In this document: in pieces, positions 1,324-30,061 of the stretch
Layout: the number at the start of each line of letters is the position of its first letter
How positions within the stretch are numbered: position 1 is the stretch's first letter
The notes under the pieces: generated by a model
Databases searched by the model: none
Seen by the model: the letters and a program-made list of their open reading frames with translations, nothing else
Told to the model about the DNA's origin: nothing
Program-made: the position numbers and the translations under genes
Assembly: GCF_016862935.1 (NCBI RefSeq)
Contig: NZ_BONX01000006.1
Span: 1-59,849, forward strand
Origin: Plantactinospora mayteni
GTDB lineage: Bacteria > Actinomycetota > Actinomycetes > Mycobacteriales > Micromonosporaceae
Length of the DNA stretch: 59,849 bases
Direction: 5' to 3'

Positions 1324-1699
1324 GGCGAGGGAACGTGGCACGCCGAGGCCGAGGCGGCAGGCGTACTTGGACGGGCGGTGCGCAGCCGCTAGATCGGCGC
1401 CGGTGTCCCCGACGACCCATGAGTCTTCTGGTCGAATGCGATGGCTTCCGATCGCTTCCTCGAAAGGGGAGGTTGGGGCTTGCGGCACGAGCAGGCAGCG
1501 CCGATATCGTGCGGGCAGACGTAGACGGGTATAGGCGGGCTCCGTGAAACGCGGCTTGCTGTATGAATTCTGCACACATCAAATGGAAGTACTCGATCGT
1601 GAAGAGTCCGTGGCTGATCCTTCCTTGGTTTGTGATTATTGGGCAGATGTAGTTTGAGGCCGCAAGGTCGGCGAGAGCCTTGAATGTCCGCGTTTGGCA
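1324..1699 (-). pseudogene. Decayed HAD-IIIA (GmhB/HisB-N-like) phosphatase
   Basis: Read on the minus strand, conserved pieces of a D,D-heptose-1,7-bisphosphate-phosphatase-type HAD protein appear in the right order but in three frames. The first is ITNQGRISHGLFT at about 1699-1574. The second is YVCPHDIGAACSCRKPQP at about 1525-1470, the zinc-loop signature CPHxxxxxCxCRKPxP. The third is PEDSWVVGDTGADLAAA, the HAD motif IV, at about 1430-1381. At least two frameshifts separate them and the N-terminal catalytic DxD region is not seen. It follows the leftward kinase/QueC operon in the same orientation, so it was probably the last gene of that operon and has been lost. Confidence 0.6.
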
Positions 1700-1858
1700 G
1701 CGGCGAGATGGCTCGTTCCCCTCGATCACCGATGGGCTCGGCAGGAGCCGTTGAGGTCGCAGAAGACGGCTCGCATGCTGCCGAGGATAGACTGTCCGGG
1801 CGGGTGGCGCGAAGAAGGAACGCGGGAGTATTCGGTGACGGGTGCCGAGGATCTTCAG

Positions 1859-2377
1859 TTAGTTCGAAAGGTAGTCCAGGCAGGCATGCAGGACCTCTGA
1901 TTGCGGCTTGTTCGTATCGATGACGAGTTTGGGGCCCGGGATGGGGTGGGCTTGGGCCTTGAGGGTGCTGTGGAGGCTCGGGTCCCGGTTGGCGGCAGGG
2001 TGGTTGTCGGCGGTGCGGTCGCGCCGGAGCCGGTTGCGAGCGGTTGTGTCGTCGCAGCGACACTCGATGATCTTGAGGGGCTGACGGAGGCTCGTTGCGA
2101 GACGACGAACAGCCTCAACCTGGTAGGTCTGGCTGTAGGTTCGGCCGTCGAGGATGACGGTTCGGGTGGGATCTTCGGCGAGGAGTCGCGCGGTTGTTCG
2201 GTAGATGATCCCGACGACGAAGTCGTCTTGACCTCTCGTGTAGGTGGTGCCTTCAAACCCGAAGAGTGCGGCGCGGATGTGATCTTTGTCGAGCACCCGT
2301 GCGTGCAGGGCCTTGGCGAGTTGCCTTGCGAGGGTGCTCTTGCCGGTTCCAGGAAGTCCCGTGATGGCGATGATCAT
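1859..2377 (-). CDS. AAA-family P-loop kinase (small-molecule kinase-like)
   Basis: 172 aa single-domain P-loop protein. The Walker A motif GLPGTGKS lies near residues 7-14. The chain then resembles the AAA_33/adenylylsulfate-kinase-like group, with an ILDGRTYS stretch in place of a typical DxR loop and CRCDD before an Arg-rich lid (ARNRLRRDR). The substrate is not evident; relatives phosphorylate small alcohols, nucleosides or antibiotics. The ATG overlaps the stop of the NTP_transf_5 gene by four bases (2374-2377), so the two are likely translationally coupled in the QueC operon. It is the last intact gene of that operon. Confidence 0.75.
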   Translation of the reverse strand: MIIAITGLPGTGKSTLARQLAKALHARVLDKDHIRAALFGFEGTTYTRGQDDFVVGIIYRTTARLLAEDPTRTVILDGRTYSQTYQVEAVRRLATSLRQPLKIIECRCDDTTARNRLRRDRTADNHPAANRDPSLHSTLKAQAHPIPGPKLVIDTNKPQSEVLHACLDYLSN

Positions 2378-3381
2378 GATTGGTTGCCGTACAGCAGGGT
2401 GGCCAAGTCGTCGGCAACGTGGGGTGCCGGCGGCCCGATTTGGGGGTCAAGTTTCAATGCGTTGGTGATGTTCGATCCCATGGCCCTGTCGAGGCGACGG
2501 AATACCCAGTCGGCTTGGGATCGCGCATTGTGGTCGACGATTACTTGGCGGGCAGCATCGGCCTCGCCGGCTTGGATTGCGTGGTGCCAGAGCCGTAGAA
2601 GGTCCGCGCAGGAGAGCAGGGTGAGTTGGCGCGACCGGTGTGCCTTGTCCCAGAGGGCGATGGTGGCGTATGCGGCGTGGACAGCTCGTTGGGGCACGGA
2701 GAGGAGGACATCGGGAGATCCTGGGATTGGTTGTGCGGTGCGTCGGCGTACCATCTCTGCCATAAAAGGGGCGTAGTCGACCGCGACTTCGTTGAGCTGG
2801 TGGGTGAGGTCGACGACGATCCGGGGCACGAGCGGGTCGGCCAGGGTTCGGGTGTACGGGCCGACGCTGCGGCGGCGTGTTTGGCCGATTGGCTGGTATC
2901 CAAGCTTGGTCAGGACAGTGTCCGCAGCGGCCAACCGGGAGTGCTCGATGACGAGGTCGATGTCGCTGAGGGGCCGCTCGCCGCGGCCGTAGTACAGGGT
3001 TGATTCGACAGCGATGCCGGAAACGGCGGCATAGGGGATGCTCGCGTCAGTGAATGCCTGCGCGATTCGGGCGGCTTCGCGGCGGTGGTAGTGCAGGGTG
3101 TATTGATTGAGCCGGAGTTGGCGTGCGAGGAATCGGGCGCGGTGCGGTTTCTGCTCATGGAGCAGTCCGGTATGGGTGAGATAATCGGCAAGAAGGCAGA
3201 GCACCTTGTGGTCGACCGCCAGTTCGATTAGCCCTCCCCACCGCAGGTGCGGATGACTCAGGGTGAGGCTGGCGAGCGGATACGTCTGCTCGTAAGGAGT
3301 GGGTAGACAAACGAGTTCGAGCAGCGCGATCTCAGGATTGGCGGGCTGCTCAGGGCGTGGTGATGGGCTGGTGGGGACCAT
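2374..3381 (-). CDS. NTP_transf_5-type nucleotidyltransferase family protein
   Basis: 335 aa. The region AVSGIAVESTLYYGRGERP then SDIDLVI (Asp140 and Asp142) is the GxS...DxD metal-binding core of the minimal nucleotidyltransferase fold called NTP_transf_5 (PF14907). The rest is helical. The family is often found in peptide or nucleotide-related biosynthetic loci beside HprK-like kinases, and one is present in this island at 6348-7445. It probably transfers a nucleotide or phosphate-containing group to a small molecule; the acceptor is unknown. It starts three bases after the stop of the deoxyribosyltransferase-like gene and overlaps the kinase that follows. Confidence 0.75.
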   Translation of the reverse strand: MVPTSPSPRPEQPANPEIALLELVCLPTPYEQTYPLASLTLSHPHLRWGGLIELAVDHKVLCLLADYLTHTGLLHEQKPHRARFLARQLRLNQYTLHYHRREAARIAQAFTDASIPYAAVSGIAVESTLYYGRGERPLSDIDLVIEHSRLAAADTVLTKLGYQPIGQTRRRSVGPYTRTLADPLVPRIVVDLTHQLNEVAVDYAPFMAEMVRRRTAQPIPGSPDVLLSVPQRAVHAAYATIALWDKAHRSRQLTLLSCADLLRLWHHAIQAGEADAARQVIVDHNARSQADWVFRRLDRAMGSNITNALKLDPQIGPPAPHVADDLATLLYGNQS

Positions 3382-3384
3382 CGT

Positions 3385-3846
3385 TTACTCGGTCGAATCC
3401 GGCAAGTCGAGATGTCGACCTATCAGCCTCATCAGGTCGTCGATCGTGCGGGCTGTTCCGCCCCCGAGGGCGTAGTCGATCATGAGGTTGTTGGAGTCGG
3501 TGCCTCCGAAGCGGCGTGAGTCGGTTTGGAGGCCGAAGCAGGGCTTGTCCCAGGCGTATGCCATGCCGAGTTCCACGCAGCCTCCTTCGTCGGGTACGCG
3601 GCCGTCGAGGATGAATACCAGGAGGTCGCAGTCGCGGACGGCGGCGACGTCCCCCGCGAAGAGGCGGCTGCGAACGGTGTGCTCGTCAAGGCCCTGGCGG
3701 ACGAGGGGGGCGGCCTCGCCTCCATCGCGTTGTGGCAGGTAGGTGCGTAGTCCGGCGTCGCGGAGCGCTTGGTCGACGGCGAGGTTGAACGCCTTCTCGG
3801 CGTCGTTGAACAGGGGGGCGGCGATGTAGGCGCTGGGCGTTGCCAC
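3385..3846 (-). CDS. Nucleoside 2-deoxyribosyltransferase-like protein
   Basis: 153 aa, the usual length of the family, which moves (deoxy)ribose between bases or hydrolyses nucleoside bonds through a covalent enzyme-sugar intermediate. Family signatures are YIAAPLFNDAE at the N-terminus, a DCDLLVFILDG strand-loop, and DEGGCVELGMAYA, whose Glu is the expected nucleophile. The GTG start at 3846 is chosen because AGGAG lies just upstream and the fold begins immediately; the frame stays open upstream but without family sequence. Next to QueC it is a natural candidate for attaching a deazaguanine base to a sugar or for base exchange. That role is inferred. Confidence 0.75.
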   Translation of the reverse strand: MATPSAYIAAPLFNDAEKAFNLAVDQALRDAGLRTYLPQRDGGEAAPLVRQGLDEHTVRSRLFAGDVAAVRDCDLLVFILDGRVPDEGGCVELGMAYAWDKPCFGLQTDSRRFGGTDSNNLMIDYALGGGTARTIDDLMRLIGRHLDLPDSTE

Positions 3847-3883
3847 GATTGCTCTCCTGGGGTGGTTCGGGTCGAGCGGCCGG

Positions 3884-4600
3884 TCAGGGGCGGATGCCGA
3901 CGGTGGCGAGGGCGGAGACCAGCTCTGCGGCGCGGTGCTCGGGGTAGCGGCCAGCGCGCATGGCTGGCAGGTAGTAGTCGGTGACGCGGTGCCACTGCCA
4001 GGGCGGCGAGGCGAACTCTGCGGTGGTGATGTTGTTGTTGGCCAGGGCAATCCATCGCCGGAGACAACTCGGGCAGGTGCCGCAGTGCACGCTGGCGTTG
4101 CCGGACTCGGTGCACGAGAAGGTGAGTAAGAGGTTGTCGGCGGGCAGTCCTTGGGCGAGGTACCAGGCGACGATGTCGGTCTTGGTCATGTCCCAGAACG
4201 GGCTGGCGATGGTGATGGGTCGACCGGCGAAGGAGCTGAGGGACTGTGACATTTGCTCGAAGGCGTCGGGCGACTTGTCGAGGGTGTGGTCGCCCTTGAC
4301 GCCGATGCACCAGATCGCGTCAGCGTGCCGTGAGGCGATCATGGCGAGGAAGACGTTGCGCATGGGGATGATCACGTCGTCGCCGTGCCAGGCGGACAGG
4401 TCGAGTTCGGTGCTGATGGTGAGGTTGATACCGCACCGGTCGGCGAGGGCGGCGATGGCCTGTAGCTCGGGTGCGCGGTAGCGATGGCGGATGTCGACGT
4501 ATAGGGCGGGTGGTTGGCCGAGGTAGTGCCAGGCGGGAAAGCTGTCGAGGCCAGCAGAGAAGAGCAGGAGCTGTCGGTCGGTCATGGGGCTGGTCCTCAT
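3884..4600 (-). CDS. queC: QueC-like 7-cyano-7-deazaguanine synthase
   Basis: 238 aa. QueC uses ATP and ammonia to convert 7-carboxy-7-deazaguanine into preQ0. The PP-loop is S15-A-G-L-D-S20, a variant of the usual SGGxDS. The four zinc cysteines are all present and spaced as in QueC (Cys163, then CGTCPSC at 173-179). The ATG at 4600 gives a four-base overlap with the stop of the upstream kinase; a second ATG at 4585 is also possible. QueD and QueE lie 9-10 kb away in the same orientation, so the three preQ0 enzymes are split between two operons. Because the P-loop is variant, a product stopping at the amide cannot be excluded. Confidence 0.85.
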   Translation of the reverse strand: MRTSPMTDRQLLLFSAGLDSFPAWHYLGQPPALYVDIRHRYRAPELQAIAALADRCGINLTISTELDLSAWHGDDVIIPMRNVFLAMIASRHADAIWCIGVKGDHTLDKSPDAFEQMSQSLSSFAGRPITIASPFWDMTKTDIVAWYLAQGLPADNLLLTFSCTESGNASVHCGTCPSCLRRWIALANNNITTAEFASPPWQWHRVTDYYLPAMRAGRYPEHRAAELVSALATVGIRP

Positions 4601-5346
4601 TCGGCGGGTACCTTCAGGAGGTGGCGGGCGTACTGGGCGGCTTTGCAGGCGACATCGTCGGCGTCGCGCAGGCCGACGGTGATGCGACGGACCGACCCGG
4701 GACGCTCGGCTAGGACGCGCTGGTAGTTCTCGGCCAAGGCGGGCAGGAAGAGCAGGCGCTCGACGGCGGCGGGGTTGCCGTCGCCCCTGCCGCGGGCGAT
4801 GGCGCGTTCCCGGGCCAGGGGCCAGGGCACGTCGAGGTGGATGGCGAGGTCGGGGTGTAGCCACCACAGGTCGGTGCACGCGCGAAGTTGGGGCAGCAGG
4901 GTGTGTTGGGGTACGTCGGGGTTCCGCTCGGCGAGGATGGTCAGGTAGTAGGCCATCTTGAGGTAGACGCCGTGGTCGATGATTACTACCTGGTTCTCCC
5001 GGCATGCGGCCTGGTAGACCCGGGTCTGGTGGTCGGCTTCTCGGCACAGCCGCAGGAACAGGTCGATGATGGCGTGGTGCGGTACGGTGAAGCCGCCGAT
5101 GCCGGTGCGGCTGCGTAGCGGGTGGTGTTCGAGGAAGTCGGAGAGGTCCGCGAGGACACCGTGGCGGGCGCCGTAGGCGACCACGCGGGTGGTGAACCCG
5201 AGTGAAGCGAGGTGTTCGCCGAGCCGGCGGGCGCAGGTGGTCTTGCCTGCACCCCATACGCCCTCGATCGTGATGACCGCGGCACGTTGTTGGACCGTCG
5301 TCCGGTCCCGCGTGCTTCTGGTATTGGCGGTTGACATCGTGGTCAC
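4597..5346 (-). CDS. Thymidylate-kinase-like P-loop kinase
   Basis: 249 aa. The motif IEGVWGAGKTT near residues 28-38 is the P-loop of the dTMP/deoxynucleoside kinase group; IIDHGVYLKMAYYL occupies the DRx position and RERAIARGRGDG is a plausible lid. It is the first gene of the leftward operon that continues into queC. A GTG at 5346 with GGGAG nine bases upstream is chosen; an ATG at 5337 is possible. A second kinase of the same superfamily lies at 11733-12389. Two such kinases with a deazaguanine pathway and a deoxyribosyltransferase suggest nucleotide formation, but the substrate is unproven. Confidence 0.75.
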   Translation of the reverse strand: MTTMSTANTRSTRDRTTVQQRAAVITIEGVWGAGKTTCARRLGEHLASLGFTTRVVAYGARHGVLADLSDFLEHHPLRSRTGIGGFTVPHHAIIDLFLRLCREADHQTRVYQAACRENQVVIIDHGVYLKMAYYLTILAERNPDVPQHTLLPQLRACTDLWWLHPDLAIHLDVPWPLARERAIARGRGDGNPAAVERLLFLPALAENYQRVLAERPGSVRRITVGLRDADDVACKAAQYARHLLKVPAE

Positions 5347-5485
5347 TGGATCTCACTCCCGCTTGGATGTGGCCCTACCAGTCGACCAGTGGCTCGCGGC
5401 GGGGTGAAGGCTGGAGAGGCGTGAAAGTTGTGAATGTTGCCCGTGTATCGGGTGGTCGACCGGCTTGGGCGAGAAGACTGGTCGC
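5347..5485. promoter_or_regulatory. Divergent promoter region between the kinase-queC operon and the IMPase-like gene
   Basis: About 140 bases separate the leftward kinase gene from the rightward IMPase-like gene, so promoters for both must lie here or just inside them. I see no confident -10/-35 pair or inverted repeat. Confidence 0.35.
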
Positions 5486-6343
5486 GTGGATGTGCCAGAC
5501 CAGGTGATACAAGCGGGCCGATCCCGTGAGGGGCATGATCTGGATGCGTGGTTGGCGGTGGCGCGCGCAGCGGTGGCGTGCGCGGCTGCCTACGTGCGCG
5601 ACCACTTGCCGGGGGCGGTTGCGGCGAAGGGTGATCGGGATCTCGTGTCCGACGTCGATCTCGCGGTCGAGCGGCTGGTGCGGGACTTCCTTCATCAGCA
5701 CGCACCTGGCGTGGCGTTCGGCGGCGAGGAGTACGGCTTCCCGCCGGGTGTGGTGGATGAGCAGTGGGTGCTGGATCCGGTGGACGGCACGGTGAACTTC
5801 GTCCACGGAATTCCGCTGTGCGCGGTCTCGCTGGCGCTTCGGCGCGGTGACCGGGCGGTGCTCGGGGTCATCGCGGCGCCGTTCCTGGGCACCAGTTACT
5901 GGGCGGCGGAGGGGCGGGGCGCGTTCCGCAATGGGCAACCGATCATGGCCTCTCGCCGGCATGCACTGGATCAGGCTGTTGTCGCGGTCGGTGACTACGG
6001 CACGGGGGCGGGGGCAGCGTCCCGGAACCGTGCGGCGGTGTCGTTGCATCGTCGCCTGGCGGACCAGGTCCAGCGGGTGCGGATGCTGGGGTCGGCGGCA
6101 ATGGATCTGGTGTGGGTTGCCGAGGGTGCACTCGACGCGAGTATCACGCTTGGTAATCGGGTGTGGGACATGGCGGCGGGTGTGGTGATCGCGCGGGAAG
6201 CCGGGGCGGTGGTGGTCGACGTCGATGGATCGCCGCACGACTGCACCTCGGCGATCACGATCGCCGTGGCCGAACCCTTGGCTCTGCCAGTCACGGAGCT
6301 GGTGCGGGCGGCGATGCGAGAGGGCGGGCATCTGCCGGCCTGA
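5486..6343 (+). CDS. Inositol-monophosphatase-family phosphatase
   Basis: About 285 aa. The family metal-binding motifs are all present: GGEEYG, WVLDPVDGTVNF and RVWDMAAGVVIAREAG. The family dephosphorylates inositol phosphates, fructose bisphosphate, PAP or histidinol phosphate with Mg2+. Here a sugar or nucleoside phosphate is most likely, given the neighbours. It is the only rightward gene in the island and ends four bases before the stop of the leftward HprK-like gene. The start is uncertain: the frame is open from a TTG at 5465, and GTG codons at 5486, 5492 and 5504 lack a strong ribosome binding site. Confidence 0.85.
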   Translation: MDVPDQVIQAGRSREGHDLDAWLAVARAAVACAAAYVRDHLPGAVAAKGDRDLVSDVDLAVERLVRDFLHQHAPGVAFGGEEYGFPPGVVDEQWVLDPVDGTVNFVHGIPLCAVSLALRRGDRAVLGVIAAPFLGTSYWAAEGRGAFRNGQPIMASRRHALDQAVVAVGDYGTGAGAASRNRAAVSLHRRLADQVQRVRMLGSAAMDLVWVAEGALDASITLGNRVWDMAAGVVIAREAGAVVVDVDGSPHDCTSAITIAVAEPLALPVTELVRAAMREGGHLPA

Positions 6344-6347
6344 TTCC

Positions 6348-7445
6348 TTACCCGGTGGCACGCCAGATCACCTCGGCGAGTCCAGCCGCCGTGCCGGCAG
6401 GACTCGGTCCCACAGGGAGGCGGAAGCAGGGCACCGTATTTGCGACAGCTTCCGCCGCTGCCCGGATGTGCGCGTTCCGGTCCGATTCCGGCTGTGGGAT
6501 GAGCCAGTGGTTGATGCGGGCGGCGTACCCGCGAGCCCGGTCGACGGTGAAGAACCGGGTGCCGATGAGGGTTGCGCGTACCTCTTCCGGCTCCACAGGC
6601 TCAGCGGCCCCAGGCGTTGGCTGATCGAGTGTCAGGGTCGGCCACAGCATGACCGTGAGGTGGCAGGCGTTGCGGATGCTGCCCGAGGTCAACAGGCCGG
6701 GGATGTCGGGTGGTTCGACCGTGGCTTTCGTGTCGGACGTGGCGGCGAGCGCGGTGAAGTCGGAGTAAGCGTGCAGCGTCCCGGCGCCGATGTGGAGCCG
6801 ATGGGGCCATGCGTGTCCGACGAGCGTCTTGCCGTCGGTGTGCAGGAGGAGCCGGTCGTTGGTGACGAAGTCGGCGCCGAGGTGTCGTAGGGCGGCGATC
6901 AGTGTGGTGGTCTTGCCCGCACCCTTGAGCCCGGCGACGGCGATGCCCTGCCCGCGGTAGATGAACGCGGCAGCGTGGGCGTAAACGACGCCTTGTCGGA
7001 GTAGTTGGGCGGTCATAGCCTGCCGGGTCAGCCGGGTGGACCAGTCACGAGCGGCATCGGGCGGGCAGTTGACCAGGATGAGGCGGCGGCGGGGGTCGAG
7101 CCGGATGAGGCTCGACCGGTCCGGTATCCACCACACATCGAGCCCGAATAGCGCGAGCTTCCTCGCGGAGACGTTGGGGCCGATGTCGCGGGTGATGGTG
7201 CCGGCAAACGCGCAGTCCCACGCGGCGGGATTCGTGGGCGGTTCGGCGACGATGACGATCTGCCAGGCGGCGGGTCCGGCAGGATGGGTCGTGTACGAGT
7301 AGAGGGTGCTGGTCGCGGCTGTCAGCGCGGTGGGCAGGTCGCAGGTCAGGGCTACCGATGCCGTGTGCTGTCGGAAGACGATGGTGGTGGGGCTGGCCCC
7401 GGGGGCGGGAAGCTGCGAGATCGCGGCACGGAGCGGATCGGTCAT
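6348..7445 (-). CDS. HprK-like kinase
   Basis: 365 aa. A P-loop AGLKGAGKTTT at about 171-181 follows AHAAAFIYRGQGIAV, the arrangement of HPr-kinase-like proteins found in biosynthetic loci. After it come FVTNDRLLL and a Pro/His-rich stretch as in HprK relatives. There is no HPr or PTS gene nearby, so the substrate is probably a small molecule or carrier. The ATG at 7445 overlaps the cupin stop by four bases (ATGA), which decides the start. It is the last gene of the queD operon and converges on the IMPase-like gene. Confidence 0.7.
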   Translation of the reverse strand: MTDPLRAAISQLPAPGASPTTIVFRQHTASVALTCDLPTALTAATSTLYSYTTHPAGPAAWQIVIVAEPPTNPAAWDCAFAGTITRDIGPNVSARKLALFGLDVWWIPDRSSLIRLDPRRRLILVNCPPDAARDWSTRLTRQAMTAQLLRQGVVYAHAAAFIYRGQGIAVAGLKGAGKTTTLIAALRHLGADFVTNDRLLLHTDGKTLVGHAWPHRLHIGAGTLHAYSDFTALAATSDTKATVEPPDIPGLLTSGSIRNACHLTVMLWPTLTLDQPTPGAAEPVEPEEVRATLIGTRFFTVDRARGYAARINHWLIPQPESDRNAHIRAAAEAVANTVPCFRLPVGPSPAGTAAGLAEVIWRATG

Positions 7446-8326
7446 CCGAAGGGCCAATCCTGGTTCTTCCAGGCCGTGTCGGCGGCGGTCATGAGTTGCT
7501 CCAGCAGTCCGACAGATCGGGTGATGTACAGCTCGCACAGCGACTTCTCTGGACCGAGGTTGTGGCTGAGCCAGTGCGGGATGCCGTCGCAGGGCTGCGG
7601 CCTACCCCACGGCGTGAGGTCGGGCCCTTCAAGGCATAGTCCGCCGTCGCGGTTGCGCATCGCGATACGGAGAGGATCGCGGCGCCCGTACTTGAACTGG
7701 CTGTCCTTGCCGGCGGCGCGGCTGCTGGGTCCGCGTGCGGGGCGGAGCCGATCGGCGTAGATGTTGAACACGGCGGTGGGGGCGTCGAGCACGTAGGTGA
7801 GGTGCCAGGCACCGAAGGGCACGACCACCAGGTCACCTGGCCCCGAGGTGTGCTGGTAGAGATAGCGGCTGCCGTCCGGCCGCCACCCACTGACGATCAT
7901 GAGGTTGCGTCCGGCAAGGGTTTGAAAGATCTCCAACTGGTTCGCGCCGTTCCAGTGGCCTGTTGAGCGGATCGGCTCGCCGGTTGCGAGGACACCGGCC
8001 GGGTAGATCACCAGGTCGGCCGACCAGCCCTCGCCTATTTCCGCGTCGGTGCAGGCGGGTCGCTGCGGCAGGATGTCCCGGTAGGCGTCGTACATGACCG
8101 GGTTGTCTCCGGTCCGGACCGCCTGATGGAGTGCGGGGACGTCGAGGAAGTAGGGGCCGCCCGGTGGCCGGAGCATGTCGGCGAGGCGACGCGTGGTGCC
8201 GGCGTACGGTCGGCCGTTGAGGCGCAACCCGTGGCCGGGCTGGTAGGTGGCGTGGTGGAAGCCCCAGCCGAGCGGAAGAGCGGCGCGGAGGTCTGTGCCA
8301 CGGCTGAAATTGGTAGCGGCAGTCAC
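7442..8326 (-). CDS. Cupin protein related to archaeal-type glucose-6-phosphate isomerase
   Basis: 294 aa. The core GHWNGANQLEIFQTLAGRNLMIV followed by GPGDLVVVPFGAWHLT holds the His, Glu and second His positions of a metal-binding cupin barrel, as in cupin phosphoglucose isomerases. The expected role is isomerisation or epimerisation of a sugar phosphate. The N-terminal 100 residues are not the standard family sequence, and the family usually runs about 190 aa, so this is a longer variant. The GTG at 8326 overlaps the HAD stop by four bases. Confidence 0.6.
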   Translation of the reverse strand: MTAATNFSRGTDLRAALPLGWGFHHATYQPGHGLRLNGRPYAGTTRRLADMLRPPGGPYFLDVPALHQAVRTGDNPVMYDAYRDILPQRPACTDAEIGEGWSADLVIYPAGVLATGEPIRSTGHWNGANQLEIFQTLAGRNLMIVSGWRPDGSRYLYQHTSGPGDLVVVPFGAWHLTYVLDAPTAVFNIYADRLRPARGPSSRAAGKDSQFKYGRRDPLRIAMRNRDGGLCLEGPDLTPWGRPQPCDGIPHWLSHNLGPEKSLCELYITRSVGLLEQLMTAADTAWKNQDWPFG

Positions 8327-9111
8327 GAGATCGGGCCTCCTGCGACCTTCCGGGTGGGTCGGCGTGGGAATGGGGCGCTGTCGGGAGCGGTGGAGGGCAG
8401 GTCGAGCAGGGGCACGAGCATGTCGAACCGGGCGATGTCCTGGACGACTGCCATTGCCGGTGCCGTTGCGCCGGCAGGGTTGAACCAGACGGCCTGCCAT
8501 CCGGCCTCGGTGGCGCCCCGCACGTCGGTACGCCAGTCATCGCCAAGGTGCAGGATCTCCGTCGGATCAGCGTGTACCTCATCGGCGACAGCGCGGAAGT
8601 AACTGGGATGCGGCTTGGCCACGCCCAGCTCGTCGGAGAAGTACACGCCGTCGACGAGGTCCGCAAGTCCCCGGTATTCGAGGATCGAGCGTACGACCTT
8701 TCCGACGCTGGTCAGCGTGTTCGAGCTGACCACGACCCGGCGGCCCGAATCGTGGAGCTGCCGCAGCACCTCATGGGCGCCCGGCGCCGGTTCCGGACAG
8801 GCCCGCAGGACGGCGTGTGTGTGAACGACGACCAGCACGTCCAGCAAGTCATCCCGGAACGGCACGTCCAGCCGGGCCAACACGTCGGCAATCTGGGCGC
8901 GCGGAGCGAGCTGTTCGCCGTGGTGCCGTTGACGACGCAGGTGCTCTCGGTGCGCGTCGTCGGTCGCTTCCTGTAGTGCTCCGGCGTCCACGGGATGGCC
9001 GAACTCCTCTAGGACGAGCGCGAACTCGCGCAGTCGCCACGCGCGGGCAGCGTCCCGGTCGCCCATGTCGATGAGGGTGCCCCACAGATCGAGGCTGACC
9101 ACGCGGATCAT
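8323..9111 (-). CDS. HAD-superfamily hydrolase (phosphatase)
   Basis: 262 aa with all four HAD motifs: the nucleophile in SLDLWGTLID (Asp8), VVSSNTL (motif II), GVAKPHPSYF (motif III Lys) and LHLGDDWRTDVRGA (motif IV). A helical cap lies between motifs I and II, so it is a subfamily I phosphatase. Such enzymes act on sugar phosphates, nucleotides or phosphoglycolate. The ATG at 9111 makes an ATGA overlap with the epimerase stop; the codons before it are not HAD-like. Confidence 0.85.
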   Translation of the reverse strand: MIRVVSLDLWGTLIDMGDRDAARAWRLREFALVLEEFGHPVDAGALQEATDDAHREHLRRQRHHGEQLAPRAQIADVLARLDVPFRDDLLDVLVVVHTHAVLRACPEPAPGAHEVLRQLHDSGRRVVVSSNTLTSVGKVVRSILEYRGLADLVDGVYFSDELGVAKPHPSYFRAVADEVHADPTEILHLGDDWRTDVRGATEAGWQAVWFNPAGATAPAMAVVQDIARFDMLVPLLDLPSTAPDSAPFPRRPTRKVAGGPIS

Positions 9112-9806
9112 GAGCCGGCCGCCCACAGACCGGCGGCACGCAACCAGTCAACCGTGTCGGCGGGATCGGGTGCCTCGAACACGAGCGAGCCGGCCACGAC
9201 GGCGTGCACGCCGGCCTCAGCGAAGCGGGGAACGGTGTGCCGGCGGATTCCGCCGTCAGCGACGATCCGGATCGCGGCGCGGCGTGGGTGCTGGCTGATC
9301 AGGTGCCGCAGGGCCTGTATCCGCGCTGGCATTTCGGAGCTGGCGTCGGTGCCCTTGCTGCCCAGCGGGGTGCAGATCGCGACAACGGCGTCCACCTGGG
9401 CCAAGTGGTCGACGATGGTGGCGGGGTCGGTGTCGAGCCGCAGTGCCAGCCCCGCTGCCTTGCCGTGACTTCGGATCACGTTGATCGCCTGCGATACGTG
9501 CTCGGTTTCGGCGTGCACGGTGATGAGGTCGGCGCCGGCCTCGGCGAACGCCGGGGCGATGCGGGCAGGATTGTCGACCATGAGGTGGACATGCATTGGT
9601 GTGCTCGTCAGACGCCGCAGCGCCGCGACCACGTCGGGGAAGAACAGCAACTGGTCCACGAAGTGCCCGTCCGCGACGTCGATGTGGAACAGGTCGGCGA
9701 ACGGGGCGGTGCGTCGGACGTCTGTGGCGAGGTCGGTCAGGTCAGCGGACCACAGCGACAGGTCGACCAGCAGGCGGTTGGAGGGGAAACGATTCCAGAA
9801 CGACAT
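9108..9806 (-). CDS. Ribulose-phosphate 3-epimerase-family protein
   Basis: 232 aa TIM barrel. Family motifs are FHIDVADGHFV (metal His and catalytic Asp), HVHLMVDNP, a CTPLGSKGTD loop and VADGGI at the C-terminal phosphate site. The family interconverts ribulose and xylulose 5-phosphates or epimerises allulose 6-phosphate. A housekeeping Rpe would normally be encoded elsewhere, so this copy probably serves the pathway of the island, on a pentose or hexulose phosphate. It overlaps the HAD gene and follows the isomerase-like gene by about 40 bases. Confidence 0.8.
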   Translation of the reverse strand: MSFWNRFPSNRLLVDLSLWSADLTDLATDVRRTAPFADLFHIDVADGHFVDQLLFFPDVVAALRRLTSTPMHVHLMVDNPARIAPAFAEAGADLITVHAETEHVSQAINVIRSHGKAAGLALRLDTDPATIVDHLAQVDAVVAICTPLGSKGTDASSEMPARIQALRHLISQHPRRAAIRIVADGGIRRHTVPRFAEAGVHAVVAGSLVFEAPDPADTVDWLRAAGLWAAGS

Positions 9807-9846
9807 CAGCGATACCTCATGAATGGGGCGGTACCTGGGTGCCTGG

Positions 9847-10734
9847 TCAGGCAGGGATGTACGGGGTGCAGTGGGCCACCGAGCTGAGCAGCGTGGCGCG
9901 CACCTGGTCGTCGTCGTCCTCGAACCGGGGGTAGATCTCCAGCATCACCGGGATGTCGGCCAGCCCAGCGACGTCCAGGCGGGCGGCGAAATCGGCGACG
10001 TCGAAGCGACCCCGCTCGTGCGGCCAGCCCCAGTGCGGGTCACCCTGACGGTCGGTGTTGTCGAGGTGAATCAGCTTGGTGTCGCTGGCGAGAGCGTCGA
10101 GCCAGTCCCCGACGTTCGCGTTCGGCCCGTACAGCGGCTCGTACACGGTGTGGCCGGTGTCCACGGCGAAGCCGAACGGCACCCCGCGCTCGTGCAGGTC
10201 GGCGGCGAGTTGCTTGCACTGGGCGACGTTGTGGGGGATCTCCCGGGCAATCGGGGTGGGTTCGATGAGCAAGTGGTCGAGTCCGGCCTGTCGCACCTGC
10301 CCGCCGATGACGTCGAGGGCGTCCAGCAGGTCCCGGTAGCGCTGCTCACGGTGGACGAAATCGGCGGCGTCACGCACGCTCATTGTGCCGAGGGGGCCAC
10401 CCACGGCGGTGGCGCCCAGCTCGCCGGCCATGAACGCGGCTCGGGTCCACCACGTGATAGCCAGCCGACGGGCGTCCGGGTCCGGGTCCAGCAGTCCGGC
10501 GGGCACGTAGTGAGCCAGTCCGACGAACGCCGAGTGGATGGTGAGCTGCCAGTCGTCGGCAGCCTTACGGACCTGCTCGACGATCCGGGCACGGTCGTCG
10601 GCAGGCCACCACGGGTCGGCCAGGTCGAAGGTGAACTGCACGACGCTGAGGCCGAGGTCTTCCCGGACGAACCGGGCCCAGGCGTGCGGTTCGAGGTAGC
10701 GCTTGACGGCGAAGCACAGGTTGATACCGAGCAC
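9847..10734 (-). CDS. Sugar phosphate isomerase/epimerase-like TIM-barrel protein
   Basis: 295 aa of the AP_endonuc_2 (xylose-isomerase-like) fold. Metal-site features include LIEPTP (Glu), FAVDTGHTV (Asp and His), KLIHLDNTD and VMLEIYPR (Glu). Related enzymes epimerise tagatose or ribulose phosphates, or isomerise erythrulose phosphates. It starts with GTG. With the neighbouring epimerase and cupin, it gives this operon three sugar-isomerising enzymes, more than a base pathway alone would need. Confidence 0.75.
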   Translation of the reverse strand: MLGINLCFAVKRYLEPHAWARFVREDLGLSVVQFTFDLADPWWPADDRARIVEQVRKAADDWQLTIHSAFVGLAHYVPAGLLDPDPDARRLAITWWTRAAFMAGELGATAVGGPLGTMSVRDAADFVHREQRYRDLLDALDVIGGQVRQAGLDHLLIEPTPIAREIPHNVAQCKQLAADLHERGVPFGFAVDTGHTVYEPLYGPNANVGDWLDALASDTKLIHLDNTDRQGDPHWGWPHERGRFDVADFAARLDVAGLADIPVMLEIYPRFEDDDDQVRATLLSSVAHCTPYIPA

Positions 10735-10770
10735 GAGAGGGTCCTCTCCAGGGTTGGTACCGCAACGGGG

Positions 10771-11736
10771 TCAGGGCAGGTCGGTGAACAGGTGCCGGAC
10801 GCGGGTGAGTTGAGTGCCGAACTCCGCGGCTCGCTGGTCGCGTTGCTTCCAGAGCACGGCGAGCCAGCGCAGCGCGCAGGTGCGCTGGCAGGCGCGGAAT
10901 CGTTGTTGTTCCTGTGGCGCGACGCCCAGCTCGGGTAGGAGCGCCTGCCAGATGTCGTCGGGGATCAGTCGGCCGCTGATGTGCTCGATCAGGTCCGCGG
11001 CGTCGAACACCAGGTCGCTGTGGCCGCAGAACTCGAAGTCGACCACCCGGATGGTGTGACCGTCCCACAGCCAGTTGATCAGGTTCGCGTCGCCGCGTGA
11101 GAAGGTGCGGGGTCGCCACTCGCAGGCCACGTCACCATCGCCGCTGCGGCGCCATCGGCCGAGCAGGCCACGCAATTCGATGGTCAGCTCGTCCCGCTCG
11201 TGCTGGAGCAGTTGCACCGCCCATGTGCGGTTGATCCGCTCGACGTAGTGCTCGGCAGAGTCGATACGGGGCAGCCGGGAGAATCCGGCCGTCAGCGGTG
11301 CGGCGTGGATGCGGCGGAGCAGGTCCGGCATCGCGGTGACCGCCGGTACCGGATCAGGCAGGTCGGGAACCGATGTTCCGGGCAGGAGCGTCATGCCGAT
11401 CACCGGCATGGCAGGGTCATCGAGGCACCACAGCGGGCGGGGAATGCCGTCAACGCCCGCGCTGGCGAGCAGCGTGAGAGCGTTCCACTCCCGCTCCAGG
11501 CGGCGTCGTTCGTCGACCCGGTAGACCTTCACGCAGATCGGTGTGGCGTCGGCGTCCGACCACTGGTAGACGTCGTTGTTACGGCCGCCGGCGACGGGAT
11601 CCAGGCCGAGGTCGCGCAACGCCTGCGCCTGATGCTCAGGCTGGTTGATACGTGCGTCGCGCAGCCCGCCCAGTAGCCGCCTTGCTCGGGCGGCTCGGGC
11701 TTGCTCACCCTGGGCGGTTACCAGGTTGTCGATCAT
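10771..11736 (-). CDS. Aminoglycoside phosphotransferase (APH)-family kinase
   Basis: 321 aa protein-kinase-like fold. An N-lobe lysine lies in ICVKVY. The catalytic loop is SRGDANLINW, with Ser-Arg in place of the more common His-Gly, and VVDFEFCGHSD supplies the metal Asp. The family phosphorylates hydroxyls of antibiotics, choline, sugars or homoserine. The ATG at 11736 gives an ATGA overlap with the upstream kinase stop and is preferred to the ATG at 11751. A role in phosphorylating a pathway intermediate, or in self-protection, is equally possible. Confidence 0.75.
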   Translation of the reverse strand: MIDNLVTAQGEQARAARARRLLGGLRDARINQPEHQAQALRDLGLDPVAGGRNNDVYQWSDADATPICVKVYRVDERRRLEREWNALTLLASAGVDGIPRPLWCLDDPAMPVIGMTLLPGTSVPDLPDPVPAVTAMPDLLRRIHAAPLTAGFSRLPRIDSAEHYVERINRTWAVQLLQHERDELTIELRGLLGRWRRSGDGDVACEWRPRTFSRGDANLINWLWDGHTIRVVDFEFCGHSDLVFDAADLIEHISGRLIPDDIWQALLPELGVAPQEQQRFRACQRTCALRWLAVLWKQRDQRAAEFGTQLTRVRHLFTDLP

Positions 11737-12389
11737 GGCAATCTCCGACACAGCTCTTGGTAGACGTGCTCGTGCACCTGCTCGGGGCCGAGGTCGCGGA
11801 CATCGACCGGAATGATGGAGGGGTCGTTCGCGGTGAGCTGTTCGTAGGCGCGGTCGACGTAGCTCAGGTACGACATCTGCTCACCGCTATAACCCAGGCC
11901 AGAGCGTAGGGTCGCGCGGCGGACCGCCGTGGCGACCGGCGGTCGCAGCCACACCACGATGTCGGCCCGTGGGCCGGCGAGCTCCCCCACCGAGCGCAGC
12001 CACGACTCCACGCGAGGTGCGTCGAGGTCCGGATAATCCCGCAGCGCGGTCGCGAGGCTGTAGGCGTACATGGTGTGCACGCCCCGGTCCTCGATGATCA
12101 CGTCGTAGTCCGCCCGCGCCGGCTCGATGGTGGTAGCGACGATCTCAGCGCGGATGGCGGCAGCAAGGAAGCTGTCAGTGAGCAAGTCGCCGTGGCGGCG
12201 GAACGGGTCACCCGAGGACGCGAACAGGGCGTTCAACCGGTCGCCCACGCTGTCGAGTGACAAGGTGGCCAGGTCGGGCACGAGCGCTACCCGCAGTCCT
12301 CGCCGGGTGAGCCGATCGGCCAGCAGGGAACTCTGTGTGGACTTGCCGGAACCTGGAAGTCCTTCGAGGCTAAGCAACATCACGGACAC
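11733..12389 (-). CDS. Second thymidylate-kinase-like P-loop kinase
   Basis: 218 aa, the normal dTMP kinase length. The P-loop is G10-L-P-G-S-G-K-S17; IIEDRGVHTMYAY fits the DRx region, and a lid-like RRATLRSGLGYSG follows. It is diverged from housekeeping Tmk (GLPGSGKS rather than the usual ExDGxGKS). The frame opens with GTG at 12389; an ATG at 12380 is an alternative. It overlaps the regulator stop upstream and the APH gene downstream. The likely substrate is a nucleoside monophosphate or nucleoside made by the pathway. Confidence 0.75.
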   Translation of the reverse strand: MSVMLLSLEGLPGSGKSTQSSLLADRLTRRGLRVALVPDLATLSLDSVGDRLNALFASSGDPFRRHGDLLTDSFLAAAIRAEIVATTIEPARADYDVIIEDRGVHTMYAYSLATALRDYPDLDAPRVESWLRSVGELAGPRADIVVWLRPPVATAVRRATLRSGLGYSGEQMSYLSYVDRAYEQLTANDPSIIPVDVRDLGPEQVHEHVYQELCRRLP

Positions 12390-13797
12390 CCCGGTTGCTC
12401 GCTACAGGTCGGTGCGGCGGAACGCTGGGCGTCGTGATGGTGCCTGTACGAAGCCGTGGCTGGGCGCCGATGACCTGTTCCAGATCGGCGATGGCATCTG
12501 CCACGGCAGGTGTACGTGCCTGCCGGATCAGATACTCGCGCAGGTGCCGCCGGAGGCGCTCGCACCGGCCGGATCGAACCGTGACCAGCAGCGGAGAAAC
12601 GGCTCGCACAGTAGTTGCGGCTTCGTCGACAGCGTCAGTCATGATCTGCGCCTCTGCCAGCACCAGCCCGTAAAACAGCCGCTCCCGGGCGCTCAGCGAT
12701 GAATTCGGGCAGACACGACTCAGCACATCCACGGCACTCCCAAGGAATTCGGCGGCATCGGGGTTCCGGCGTGCCAGCAGAGTCGCCGCGTGGGCCGACT
12801 CGACAGTGAGTCGGTTGCGCTCCGGATGGTCATCGACCATCCGGAGGTGACCAGAAATTACCTGAGCCATCGCAGAGAAATCACGCACATCACCATTGGC
12901 TGCTGCCGCCATAGCGGCACGGGTAAGAAGCCGCGCACGCAGCAGTGTCTCGCCACGTGGACACAGGCCGATGGCGCGGGTGGCTAGTTTCCTGGCTGCC
13001 TCTGGCTGTGGTCCATTGCAGACCACTTCGGCCAACGTGCCCAGCGTGGCAGCGATCCCTACGTGATCGGCGGCGGCATACCTGAGCCGAAGCGCGGACA
13101 ACAGGTATCGCTCGGCGAACCCGTTTCTACCCGCATCAAACTCCATCTCACCAAGCAGGTGAGCGAGGTCAGCAACGACGACCAGTGTGTCGCTTGCTGG
13201 CACCTCAGCGGCGACGGCTGCAAGAGCGGACAACTCGGCCCCGGCGTAGTGCCGCGTGACCCGGTCACTGCCAACCGTTCCGAAAAGCTCACGCAGCCCA
13301 GAGGTGTGGGCGGCTACCAGCGGCAGCAACGGTGTGCTGTCCTCCTGCTCCTCACCAGGCCGCTCCTTCCAGCCCTCACCTGCTGCGGCCTCCACCGCAA
13401 CGGCCAGCTCCATTGAGGTACTCATCCGCAGATGCCCAGCCCGGGAAGCCGCAGCCGCCGTTAGCTCACGAAGCGTCTGGGCCTCACCCTTCACGGATCT
13501 AGCTACGGCCACCATCGGTAGTCTCTCCAGCCGCCCCCCGACCTCGATATCAGGCCAGAGCTGTGACGCGGTGATCGGGACCCCGAGATGGTCGGAAAGC
13601 ACGGCCGCTGCCGCGTATGCCGTGATCGGTCTGGGCCGCCGCCCTTCGCGTAACCACGAATACGGTGTCGTCTGGTGAATCCTGTCCCGCGCCAGTCCCT
13701 GCGCGGACATCCACTCATTGATCTTTGTGGCGAACTGCCGGGGTGTGATCGCCGCCCGGTGAAACGCATCCGCCAGGCCATTCACCTCAGCGTCCAC
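12370..13797 (-). CDS. HTH/TPR-type regulator
   Basis: 475 aa. The N-terminal 70 residues form an XRE-like DNA-binding domain (TPYSWLREGRRPRPITAYAAA), and the remainder is a long array of Ala-rich helical TPR-like repeats from about 150 to 440. This architecture is common in actinomycete regulators embedded in biosynthetic loci, where the TPR part may bind a peptide or metabolite. It lies inside the operon between queE and the kinase, overlapping both (13787-13797 and 12370-12389). It is therefore made with the enzymes it may control. Confidence 0.75.
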   Translation of the reverse strand: MDAEVNGLADAFHRAAITPRQFATKINEWMSAQGLARDRIHQTTPYSWLREGRRPRPITAYAAAAVLSDHLGVPITASQLWPDIEVGGRLERLPMVAVARSVKGEAQTLRELTAAAASRAGHLRMSTSMELAVAVEAAAGEGWKERPGEEQEDSTPLLPLVAAHTSGLRELFGTVGSDRVTRHYAGAELSALAAVAAEVPASDTLVVVADLAHLLGEMEFDAGRNGFAERYLLSALRLRYAAADHVGIAATLGTLAEVVCNGPQPEAARKLATRAIGLCPRGETLLRARLLTRAAMAAAANGDVRDFSAMAQVISGHLRMVDDHPERNRLTVESAHAATLLARRNPDAAEFLGSAVDVLSRVCPNSSLSARERLFYGLVLAEAQIMTDAVDEAATTVRAVSPLLVTVRSGRCERLRRHLREYLIRQARTPAVADAIADLEQVIGAQPRLRTGTITTPSVPPHRPVASNRGVRDVA

Positions 13798-14524
13798 GTT
13801 CGTCTCCCCACAGCAGGATGTGCAGGCGAGGAGTCAGGTTCCACCCACGCTGAATCACCGGCGCCGCAAGCGCCCGCAGGCGTTCCAATACCAGCTCGCC
13901 CGTGGTGCCCTCGGGCATCACCCAGACCGGCCCACCCCAGCCATCACTCCCTGCGCCGATCTGCGTAAGCAACTCGGACACCTCATCCAGATCGGGTGGG
14001 CCGGTAACCACGAACTTCCACACGACCTTGCCGGTATCCCGCAGCGCCCACAGCGGCTTCGGTCGGACTCGCCGGTGCTCTGCTAGGCCCGAATGCGCCA
14101 GCTTCGGCGAGACGTTGAACACCGTCACCAGCTCCACCAGATCCGCTCGCGGCTCCAACGTGCCCGACGTCTCTACCTCGACCCGGCAGCCACCCCCTTC
14201 GGCGGCCAACCGCTGCAGAAAGTTGACCAGCGCCGGCTGTTGAAGCAGCGGCTCCCCGCCGGTGACCACCACCAGGTCAGCCCGCTGCTCCAAAAACGTA
14301 CTGACCAAGTCGTCAACGTCGACCGCACGCCGCTCGGCTGCGAGGTCGAACCGCCCCTTGTCCCACGTGTACGGGGTGTCGCACCAGACGCACGACAAAT
14401 GGCAGCCGGAAAGCCGAACGAACAAGGCACGGCGCCCAAGGCTAGGCCCCTCGCCCTGAACACTTACGAACGTCTCAGCGACCCACAACGTCCGGTCGCC
14501 TGTTCGTGGCAGCAGATCCGTCAC
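13787..14524 (-). CDS. queE: QueE, 7-carboxy-7-deazaguanine synthase
   Basis: 245 aa radical SAM enzyme that contracts 6-carboxytetrahydropterin to 7-carboxy-7-deazaguanine. The cluster motif is C41-HLS-C45-VW-C48, the QueE-type CxxxCxxC. FVSVQGEGPSLG before it and VVVTGGEPLLQQ (SAM-binding GGEP at 89-92) after it are typical. The GTG start at 14524 overlaps the queD stop by four bases. Its product would be the substrate of the QueC-like protein at 3884-4600. Confidence 0.9.
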   Translation of the reverse strand: MTDLLPRTGDRTLWVAETFVSVQGEGPSLGRRALFVRLSGCHLSCVWCDTPYTWDKGRFDLAAERRAVDVDDLVSTFLEQRADLVVVTGGEPLLQQPALVNFLQRLAAEGGGCRVEVETSGTLEPRADLVELVTVFNVSPKLAHSGLAEHRRVRPKPLWALRDTGKVVWKFVVTGPPDLDEVSELLTQIGAGSDGWGGPVWVMPEGTTGELVLERLRALAAPVIQRGWNLTPRLHILLWGDERGR

Positions 14525-15228
14525 GACAGGTCCTTGCGTCGGTATTCAGCCCACGTCGAGGGCGTCTCCGAGACGCGGACCGCAGCCAATCGTACCTTCG
14601 GCAGATGCTCCTCACACCACGCGAACAGATGCTGCGCGAGATTCTCACTCGTGGGCGGGACCGGAAACCACTCGTTCAGATAGCGGTAGTTGAACCCTTC
14701 CTTAAGATAGTTATCCAGGGGAATCAGCATTTCGTCCGCGAAAGCGGTGCCGACATCAGGCGACTCGTCCGGGATGGCAAAGACCTGGTAGGTATGTCCG
14801 TGAACCCGCGAACACTTGTGTGCGTCCCCGAGGCCGGGAAGGTGATGGGCGGCCTCGAATCGTCGTCGCCAGGAGGTCAGAGGAACATCCTCCCAGCCCG
14901 TCCCTCCTTCGGAGACCACCACGCCCGCAAGGGTTACCCCATCCGGCAATTCGAGGTTGGACCTGCACCAACCCAACAAGTGAGTGGCGACATCTCTGCC
15001 GGCCGACATTTCCCCCAGGACCTCGTTGAGATTGCGGTGGTCGAGGGTCGCGTCGATGTAACGTGCGATGACCTTCAACGCACCGAAATCAACGACGAAT
15101 CCCGGCGCGCGTAAGCGGTCGGCCTTGAGACGCGTCACGGCTGTAAACGTGTGGCCGTGCAGTCCGCGGGCAACCGCCGAGACGAGATGGGCTGCGTCGA
15201 ATCGGTGGATCACTCCTATCGAATACAC
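14521..15228 (-). CDS. queD: Two-domain QueD (6-carboxytetrahydropterin synthase), tandem fusion
   Basis: 235 aa, twice the usual length: two QueD/PTPS domains (about 1-118 and 119-235). Each keeps a set of zinc histidines (His14, His24, His26; and His128, His143, His145). Domain 1 has the catalytic Asp-His in LDHRNLNE (Asp63, His64) but Ala20 where the catalytic Cys should be, and no PTSE motif. Domain 2 has the Cys (Cys139 in KCSRVHGH) and PTSEN (192-196), but Asn-Tyr where Asp-His should be (FNYRYLNE). The halves look complementary, so one composite active site is likely. The GTG at 15228 is chosen because AAGGAGG precedes it by seven bases. It heads the operon. Confidence 0.85.
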   Translation of the reverse strand: MYSIGVIHRFDAAHLVSAVARGLHGHTFTAVTRLKADRLRAPGFVVDFGALKVIARYIDATLDHRNLNEVLGEMSAGRDVATHLLGWCRSNLELPDGVTLAGVVVSEGGTGWEDVPLTSWRRRFEAAHHLPGLGDAHKCSRVHGHTYQVFAIPDESPDVGTAFADEMLIPLDNYLKEGFNYRYLNEWFPVPPTSENLAQHLFAWCEEHLPKVRLAAVRVSETPSTWAEYRRKDLS

Positions 15229-15235
15229 CGTTCTG

Positions 15236-15242
15236 CCTCCTT
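15236..15242 (-). promoter_or_regulatory. Strong ribosome binding site deciding the queD start
   Basis: AAGGAGG on the minus strand, seven bases before the GTG at 15228. It rules out an upstream in-frame GTG at 15270 as the main start. Confidence 0.7.
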
Positions 15243-15373
15243 TTTCAAGCAGCGAGGGTACCGTCGGCACCAGTTCCGGCCAGCTCCAGTGATCTCAGAC
15301 TCCGGTAGCGGCATGGGTCCGGCGAATGTAGTAGGGCGGCGGGGTAGGTGCCGCACGGATGAAGCCGGGCGTG

Positions 15374-29966: not shown

Positions 29967-30061
29967 GCAGTTTGTTATCTCGACAAGCGGCCCGGTTCCG
30001 CATTGCTGGTACGCCTCGTTGGACTCGTCTGGGCAGTCGCTCGAGGAGTCCAGGAGGACAG

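Follow-up and report, generated by a model that had tools for sequence, protein, structure and literature searches.

A rare actinobacterial gene cluster with a divergent QueC homolog points to an undescribed 7-deazaguanine-derived metabolite

Gene content of the cluster

The contig NZ_BONX01000006.1 of the actinomycete Plantactinospora mayteni, which we analyzed over its entire length of 59,849 bases (the window in the following; the genome comprises 9.84 Mb), carries a gene cluster in which homologs of the 7-deazaguanine biosynthesis enzymes QueD, QueE and QueC lie beside kinases, phosphatases, sugar isomerases and a nucleotidyltransferase. Such a combination suggests a so far undescribed family of metabolites derived from deazaguanine. 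Gene calls are based on a list of open reading frames (ORFs) and on family scans (Pfam, NCBIfam) of the window proteins, which back nearly every call made in an earlier reading of the stretch from its letters alone (the sequence-only reading).

The cluster consists of two minus-strand runs and a single plus-strand gene between them. The first run comprises ten genes and begins with QueD (14521-15270), which has two tandem 6-carboxytetrahydropterin synthase (PTPS) domains (two stretches matching PF01242, E 1.8e-36; TIGR03367 over its cut-off) and an uncertain start, as the ORF extends to 15270 and 15228 is an alternative in-frame GTG. It is followed by the 7-carboxy-7-deazaguanine synthase QueE (13787-14524), whose top NCBIfam models are those of QueE (E 2e-24, below cut-offs) and in which the CxxxCxxC motif is present, and by an NsdA-family helix-turn-helix/tetratricopeptide repeat (HTH/TPR) regulator (12370-13797; NF053720, E 4.8e-35, over cut-off). 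Two kinases come next, the thymidylate-kinase-like P-loop kinase TMK1 (11733-12389; PF02223, E 3.6e-10) and APH, which has the aminoglycoside-phosphotransferase fold (10771-11751; PF01636, E 8.5e-16). The sugar-phosphate enzymes of the run are a xylose-isomerase-like TIM barrel (TIM, 9847-10734; PF01261, E 3.3e-14), a member of the ribulose-phosphate 3-epimerase family (RPE, 9108-9806; PF00834, E 4e-44), a HAD phosphatase (8323-9126; PF00702, E 1.3e-20) and a cupin sugar-phosphate isomerase-like protein (GPIc, ~7442-8326, start GTG 8326 inferred) without a Pfam match. The run ends with an HPrK/PEPCK-fold kinase (HPrK, 6348-~7445, start ATG 7445 inferred; TIGR04355, E 1.5e-13, below cut-off).

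The plus-strand gene encodes an inositol-monophosphatase family phosphatase (IMP, 5465-6343; PF00459, E 9.7e-57). Beyond it, the second minus-strand run comprises a further thymidylate-kinase-like P-loop kinase, TMK2 (4597-5346; PF02223, a marginal 27.6 bits against a cut-off of 27), a divergent QueC homolog, which we term QueC' (3884-4585; PF06508, E 2.1e-13) and which is the only QueC match in the genome, a nucleoside 2-deoxyribosyltransferase homolog (NDT, 3385-~3846, start GTG 3846 inferred; PF05014, E 7e-19), a nucleotidyltransferase of the family PF14907 (NTP5, 2374-3381; E 1.3e-17) and an AAA_33 P-loop kinase (1859-2377; PF13671, E 1.2e-16). With the inferred starts of NDT, GPIc and HPrK, overlaps of 4-20 bp are found at eight of the 13 junctions on the minus strand, as the sequence-only reading had stated for most genes, and the other five have gaps of 3, 11, 36, 37 and 40 bp. 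The ORF list and family scans also largely confirm the three isomerase- or epimerase-type enzymes, two phosphatases, five kinase-like proteins and one nucleotidyltransferase that this reading had placed beside QueD, QueE and a QueC homolog; NDT, however, had been missed. A decayed third phosphatase that it had listed (~1324-1800, minus strand) is weakly suggested by a match to the HAD model PF13242 (E 0.0015, below cut-off), found in one minus-strand frame within 1243-1858 with three internal stops read as X.

The tandem QueD has a division of residues between its domains. In the N-terminal domain, Ala replaces the Cys before the HGH motif in all eight tandem proteins (those of the window and of loci L034, L035, L038, L040, L042, L045 and L047; loci in other genomes carry such numbers throughout). 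In the C-terminal domain of the window, L038 and L042, that Cys is kept and Tyr replaces the His of an Asp-His pair. As the changes at the Cys and at the Asp-His pair, which we take to be catalytic, fall in different domains, the two domains look complementary. A third, single PTPS domain of the genome lies on another contig (C49, 21392-21772; L030, L037) and by eye adjoins a dehydrogenase and a glycosyltransferase; there is no QueC at that place.

Conservation in other genomes

Distant genomes hold the same genes, again as a unit, which is more than chance would produce. When the QueC' protein was searched against 397 genomes of the same order, matches were found in 28, of which five, the genome of the window included, had at least 62% identity and the remainder at most 42%. 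Close matches to HPrK fall in exactly these five genomes. In the other four the core is contiguous, with ~34-69% identity to the window, and in three of them its order is QueD-QueE-TMK2-QueC-NDT-TIM-RPE-HAD-GPIc-HPrK-NTP5-AAA33-IMP-TMK1-APH. A pattern scan over the genomes of 84,980 species yielded 11 actinobacterial loci, ten of them new, and tblastn of plasmid records gave seven close matches, six of which were examined as loci. We tabulated 20 loci, six of them on plasmids, which represent about nine lineages by QueC' identity. Left out were duplicates (L033, equal to L038; L086, equal to L034; and a second Streptomyces longwoodensis record, probably equal to L083) and an archaeal and a gut relative (L049 and L050) without any other core gene.

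Seventeen of the 20 loci are complete; L040 and L046 are cut by contig ends and L041 is a broken remnant. Twelve genes are common to all complete loci, namely those for QueD, QueE, TMK2, QueC', RPE, HAD, GPIc, HPrK, NTP5, AAA33, TMK1 and APH (in six loci, APH was covered in the tabulation by a fused TMK1-APH query and seen in the locus maps), and IMP is present in 16, with none found in L048. The que genes thus travel with the kinases and isomerases in every complete locus, as would be expected from the sequence-only reading, and que genes without this set occur in no complete homologous locus. The remnant L041 lies in Saccharopolyspora hirsuta (8062-11142) and spans 3.1 kb, from TMK2 to the start of RPE, with 93% identity to the cluster of L047. 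Its TMK2, NDT and TIM are each split over two frames and its flanks are unrelated on both sides, so the cluster can be lost piecemeal.

One could argue that several unrelated operons happen to lie side by side in the contig, given that in the window a plus-strand gene separates two runs on the minus strand. However, the same genes form one contiguous run elsewhere, and in four loci TMK1 and APH are even fused into one ORF of 569-571 amino acids; one annotated region likewise gives them as a single CDS. We give this explanation practically no credence and regard chance juxtaposition as refuted by the contiguous runs and by the set shared among all 17 complete loci.

The cluster is rare. In a sample of 396 genomes of the phylum, QueC' was found in the window genome alone, and HPrK there and, weakly, in two others. 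Weaker HPrK matches occur in 14 further genomes of the 397. Six of these places were mapped (L071-L076) for a core without que genes, and this candidate was rejected: besides HPrK, they hold one HAD match (L071) and otherwise regulator, GNAT or permease genes only.

Some relatives of the cluster or of its QueC differ in their context. L077 and L078, from the Amycolatopsis family, carry a canonical QueC of another QueC lineage without the core set; it is accompanied by a phosphoribosyltransferase and a radical SAM protein, close to an NsdA-like regulator, and L077 also has ORFs that resemble glycosyltransferases by eye. They represent a different deazaguanine cluster, possibly also undescribed. 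On the Asgard-archaeal contig L049, a QueC-like protein of 37% identity is extended at its C-terminus (9992-11005); neighboring ORFs look, by eye, like a methyltransferase and a DNA polymerase, and the contig may be a mobile element. Finally, a small DprA/SLOG-like protein is encoded near the cluster of L035 (15142-15621; PF02481, E 1e-4, below cut-off), and a similar-looking ORF near L048 (17046-17531) has no Pfam match.

A role in tRNA queuosine is unlikely

Neither tRNA-guanine transglycosylase (TGT) nor QueF has a match in the five carrier genomes searched, the whole window genome among them, whereas matches were found for TGT in 14/14 and for QueF in 8/14 control genomes. FolE was matched in all five carriers, in the window genome with two copies outside the window. 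The lack of QueF, FolE and base-exchange enzymes described in the sequence-only reading extends genome-wide for QueF and TGT, but not for FolE. As TGT and QueF are without a match while FolE is found, a role in tRNA queuosine is very unlikely, and we dropped it as an explanation; nothing indicates that the que genes feed this modification.

An exchangeable module, probably for glycosylation

Around the fixed core, two gene modules replace each other. NDT and the TIM described above occur in 12 loci, the window and L041 included, whereas eight loci carry a phosphoribosyltransferase, a radical SAM protein, a DegT aminotransferase, FolE and a different TIM (TIMb), which is hydroxypyruvate-isomerase-like (E 5e-75, below cut-off). 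The two are mutually exclusive, as none of the 20 loci has both. When the 17 complete loci were placed in an unrooted tree, the seven complete second-module loci grouped in a single clade, and the window stood apart on a long branch.

This replacement of NDT by a phosphoribosyltransferase is our main reason for placing NDT at the glycosylation step, and judging from family and context it would be the likeliest enzyme to join base and sugar. Its nearest solved structure is the 2'-deoxyribosyltransferase 7o62 (profile E 2.1e-24, Foldseek 2.6e-10), which ranks ahead of the nucleotide hydrolases DNPH1 and BcmB, and the column of the catalytic Glu is kept in eight of nine aligned proteins, with a gap at that place in L039. 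A 2-deoxyribosyl transfer could also serve DNA modification, with NDT and the kinases making a deoxy-deazaguanine triphosphate for incorporation into DNA; a route to deoxynucleoside triphosphates would require such enzymes as NDT and the two thymidylate-kinase-like proteins. Nevertheless, the second module provides a ribosyl route and yet keeps both kinases, the sugar isomerases, phosphatases and nucleotidyltransferase would be left unexplained, and the 12 shared genes include neither a polymerase nor a restriction partner. The TGT family likewise has no match in the five carriers, although its model could miss a remote DpdA. We therefore hold DNA modification to be highly improbable.

Several loci carry accessory genes. 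The four Streptomyces plasmid loci add an adenylation-peptidyl carrier protein (A-PCP), two HAD proteins, a 684-amino-acid protein without a Pfam match and a methyltransferase. ABC transporters lie near three loci and are exporter-like by their best matches, though below cut-offs, and a GT4 glycosyltransferase lies near six, in L048 as a short match only. With its radical SAM protein and DegT, the second module probably adds an amino sugar to the product, and in Streptomyces the A-PCP would probably add an amino acid. The radical SAM protein was also considered as a viperin (PADLOC pVip, E 2.5e-20), but a tungsten-cofactor maturase model of NCBIfam gives the better score and the viperin model falls well short of its cut-off, so that this assignment was rejected.

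QueC' and the fate of the deazaguanine base

Canonical QueC makes preQ0, and Y35, R99, Y131 and Y189 are essential for this in the E. coli enzyme, according to the family paper (PMC13329287). Three of these four residues are replaced in all 20 QueC' proteins, 15 from the clusters and five from plasmids. In the cluster proteins, Y35 of the YxQxHxxE motif is L, S or I and Q37 is His; in the YPDC motif, Y131 falls in a gap and C134 is K, both in 15/15; and Y189 is S, A or T. R99, E42, D133, K165 and the four Zn cysteines are kept in all 15. The plasmid proteins agree, with F (three), M (one) or S (one) at residue 189. For comparison, 24 candidate QueC loci of this order were supplied as controls, of which 15 matched. 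In the resulting 16 rows, which include the reference and of which 14 are distinct, Y35 is present in 16/16 and Y131, C134 and Y189 each in 14/16.

By this signature, QueC' is not a canonical preQ0 synthase, and with three essential residues replaced, the endpoint of the pathway is probably not preQ0. The inference of the sequence-only reading that it appears to stop at preQ0 or its precursors is thereby unsupported as regards preQ0, while its other elements find support: the que genes travel with the kinase and isomerase set, very probably do not serve queuosine and belong to a cluster unlike the toyocamycin type as described. The predicted activity of QueC' would more likely be the formation of an amide on the carboxy-base, perhaps as a nucleotide. 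Amides of 7-carboxy-7-deazaguanine (CDG) occur among natural products, for example in the echiguanines. In the family paper, the positions of the new invariant His and Lys lie at the mouth of the pocket (PMC13329287), and we infer that these residues may bind the phosphate of a CDG nucleotide.

These data also bear on the possibility of an antibiotic cluster of the toyocamycin or huimycin kind, in which QueC' would make preQ0 for subsequent glycosylation and the kinases and phosphatases would serve salvage, protection or self-resistance. The trio of QueD, QueE and QueC homologs, the FolE and phosphoribosyltransferase of the second module, which accompany the toyocamycin genes as well, and the retained Zn site, R99, D133 and K165 would fit such a cluster. 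The lost residues do not, no nitrile hydratase or base decarboxylase is named in the six annotated regions, and nothing equivalent to the five kinases and three isomerases appears in the toyocamycin, tubercidin and huimycin clusters in the descriptions consulted. We thus consider this explanation unlikely, though it deserves more weight than the other alternatives.

A further possibility is protein deazaguanylation in immunity, with QueC' attaching CDG to a protein amine, like Cap9 of type IV CBASS or QatC, and the other enzymes producing a nucleotide signal. The nearest solved structure to QueC' is indeed Cap9 (9nto, E 7.8e-11), the only match at E<1e-3, and the search returned no canonical QueC chain at E<=1. 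The PADLOC QueC model matches as well (E 1.4e-17), and a McrC gene adjoins the window locus. Yet QueC' lacks the Y/FxQ and YxDC motifs, which are kept in Cap9 (PMC13329287). No CD-NTase, TGT-like Cap10 or Qat partner was found among ten PADLOC-scanned proteins or is named in the six annotated regions, whose hypothetical proteins were partly scanned; McrC has no match in the mapped loci of the four close genomes and of the pattern scan; and the A-PCP and ABC transporter of the relatives point to a metabolite. A regulatory or defense role accordingly has less support than a natural product, and deazaguanylation appears improbable to us.

Surroundings of the cluster

The McrC-like restriction gene lies at the contig edge (43-1242), so that any McrB partner would lie past the contig. 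On the other side, a pair of genes for a RibD-like deaminase and an HTH/TPR regulator (21465-23611) recurs near the cluster of L036 (1492-3567) with 70-74% identity, i.e. in two genomes of the same family. The stretch 29972-34357 holds a phage-integrase-family recombinase (29972-31228), an ORF that resembles a second one by eye (30970-33276) and an IS3-type transposase. The G+C content is 0.60-0.70 over 1-38 kb, compared with 0.68-0.73 over 38-58 kb; together with the recombinase and transposase genes, this fits an acquired region. No RNA family reached its gathering threshold in positions 1-26000.

A proposed pathway and its product

On balance, our assessment leans towards a rare cluster for an undescribed natural product derived from 7-deazaguanine, glycosylated and phosphorylated, which is plasmid-borne in several relatives. 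We base this on its sporadic occurrence (five of 397 genomes of the order and one of 396 in the phylum sample), its presence on large plasmids and the A-PCP and transporter genes of relatives. The likeliest product would be a glycosylated and phosphorylated 7-deazaguanine nucleoside or nucleotide.

A possible pathway can be outlined. As follows from the enzyme families, QueD and QueE would convert the FolE product to CDG. The base would then be joined to a pentose, here by NDT through a 2-deoxyribosyl or related transfer and elsewhere by the phosphoribosyltransferase, as suggested by the families and the clean gene exchange. QueC' would adenylate the carboxylate and, instead of yielding free preQ0, form an amide, possibly at the level of the CDG nucleotide; we infer this from the loss of essential residues and the invariant new His and Lys at pocket-mouth positions. 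TMK1, TMK2, APH and AAA_33 could phosphorylate the nucleoside and the sugar, and TIM, the 3-epimerase, the cupin protein and the phosphatases could shape a second sugar phosphate. For TIM, the nearest structure is 3qxb (E 4.7e-71), followed by 4k3z (E 2.5e-25), which is annotated as an erythrulose-phosphate enzyme. RPE matches 5umf (E 2.5e-47) and the allulose-6-phosphate epimerase 3ct7 (E 1.1e-32) in PDB profile searches, and these matches are equally compatible with ribulose- and allulose-phosphate specificity. The GPIc family profile weakly matches the cupin glucose-6-phosphate isomerase 4luk (E 0.0076). In the most speculative step, the HPrK-fold kinase, whose model (pLDDT 88) has PEPCK and HPrK as best folds, and the PF14907 nucleotidyltransferase, for which the search gave no useful solved relative (best E 0.053), might activate the second sugar phosphate and join it through phosphate.

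More tentatively, and with clearly less confidence than in the cluster's general nature, we suggest a new class of natural products, in which a 7-deazaguanine (deoxy)nucleotide would be phosphate-linked to a second, isomerized sugar, a repurposed QueC would amidate the CDG nucleotide, and the module would switch between 2-deoxyribosyl transfer and phosphoribosyl transfer with an amino sugar. The earlier proposal of a deazaguanine nucleotide with an unusual sugar, or of a sugar-nucleotide-linked deazaguanine, remains a good guess.

Several points weigh against these proposals. No metabolite is known for the cluster, no exporter or resistance gene could be assigned in the window, and the GT4 glycosyltransferase has no match in the window genome in a search run without a positive control; a secreted product is thus supported by some relatives only. 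The Phe at residue 189 in three Streptomyces loci might keep QueC activity, the structure model of NDT has moderate confidence (pLDDT 74.6), and the functions of GPIc and HPrK rest on weak or fold-level matches. Furthermore, the loci include close relatives: QueC' identity is 90-95% among six loci of one Pseudonocardiaceae group and 92-98% among four from Streptomyces. With about nine lineages, the locus counts overstate independence, and the second module is found in only two lineages. Likewise, the correlation of pairwise distances among 11 core families (r 0.77-0.97, 17 loci), which counts in favor of the cluster, is inflated by close relatives. Lastly, L041 lacks QueD, QueE, HAD and anything past the start of RPE.

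We found no published description of this gene set in a literature search that mostly covered journals outside subscription. Its product can be sought directly in named carrier strains, for example Micromonospora rubida, M. okii, Amycolatopsis rubida, A. sp. AA4 and Streptomyces longwoodensis. Besides making preQ0 and deazaguanylating proteins, the QueC scaffold may have a third use, for which QueC' is a candidate, and the replacement of one glycosylation module by another around a fixed core constitutes a natural experiment.

Comparison with known systems

The clusters for toyocamycin, tubercidin and huimycin resemble the present one in their QueD, QueE and QueC family enzymes, their actinomycete hosts and, for the second-module version, in FolE and the phosphoribosyltransferase (PMC12648386, PMC7439116). 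They differ in that the QueC' of the present locus has lost the preQ0 signature, and in their regulator, which is ToyA-type in the toyocamycin kind and NsdA-family in the window. In the descriptions consulted, there is no counterpart of NDT, the two TMK-like, AAA_33, HPrK-fold and APH kinases, the nucleotidyltransferase, the three isomerases and the inositol-monophosphatase family enzyme.

Within the PF06508 QueC family, which includes Cap9 and QatC, QueC' shares the ATP-pyrophosphatase fold family, the Zn cysteines, R99 and K165, with Cap9 as the nearest solved structure. By contrast, it is devoid of YxQxHxxE, YPDC and Y189, and no CBASS or Qat partner was seen. By eye, it also mismatches the motif set that the family paper gives for cluster 4, a QueC-like group beside PfkB-NDT proteins (PMC13329287).

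The angustmycin pathway (AgmA-F) offers a parallel for the sugar chemistry, as it employs an unusual sugar phosphate made by a 3-epimerase, joins the base at the phosphosugar stage and includes a HAD phosphatase (PMC8599513). Our reading of the epimerase follows this logic, although the base here would be a deazaguanine, the kinases are many more and no AgmC-type pyrophosphokinase is among the shared genes. In the pathways to puromycin, A201A and 3'-amino-3'-deoxyguanosine, in turn, Pur10, Pur4 and Pur3 resemble the pairing of a possible oxidizing enzyme and an aminotransferase beside a monophosphatase in the second module (PMC9239236, PMC11641026). The second module has a radical SAM protein instead of an NAD dehydrogenase, however, and the window is without this module. 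It is the logic of the puromycin and aminodeoxyguanosine pathways that leads us to read the second module as probably providing an amino sugar (PMC9239236, PMC11641026).

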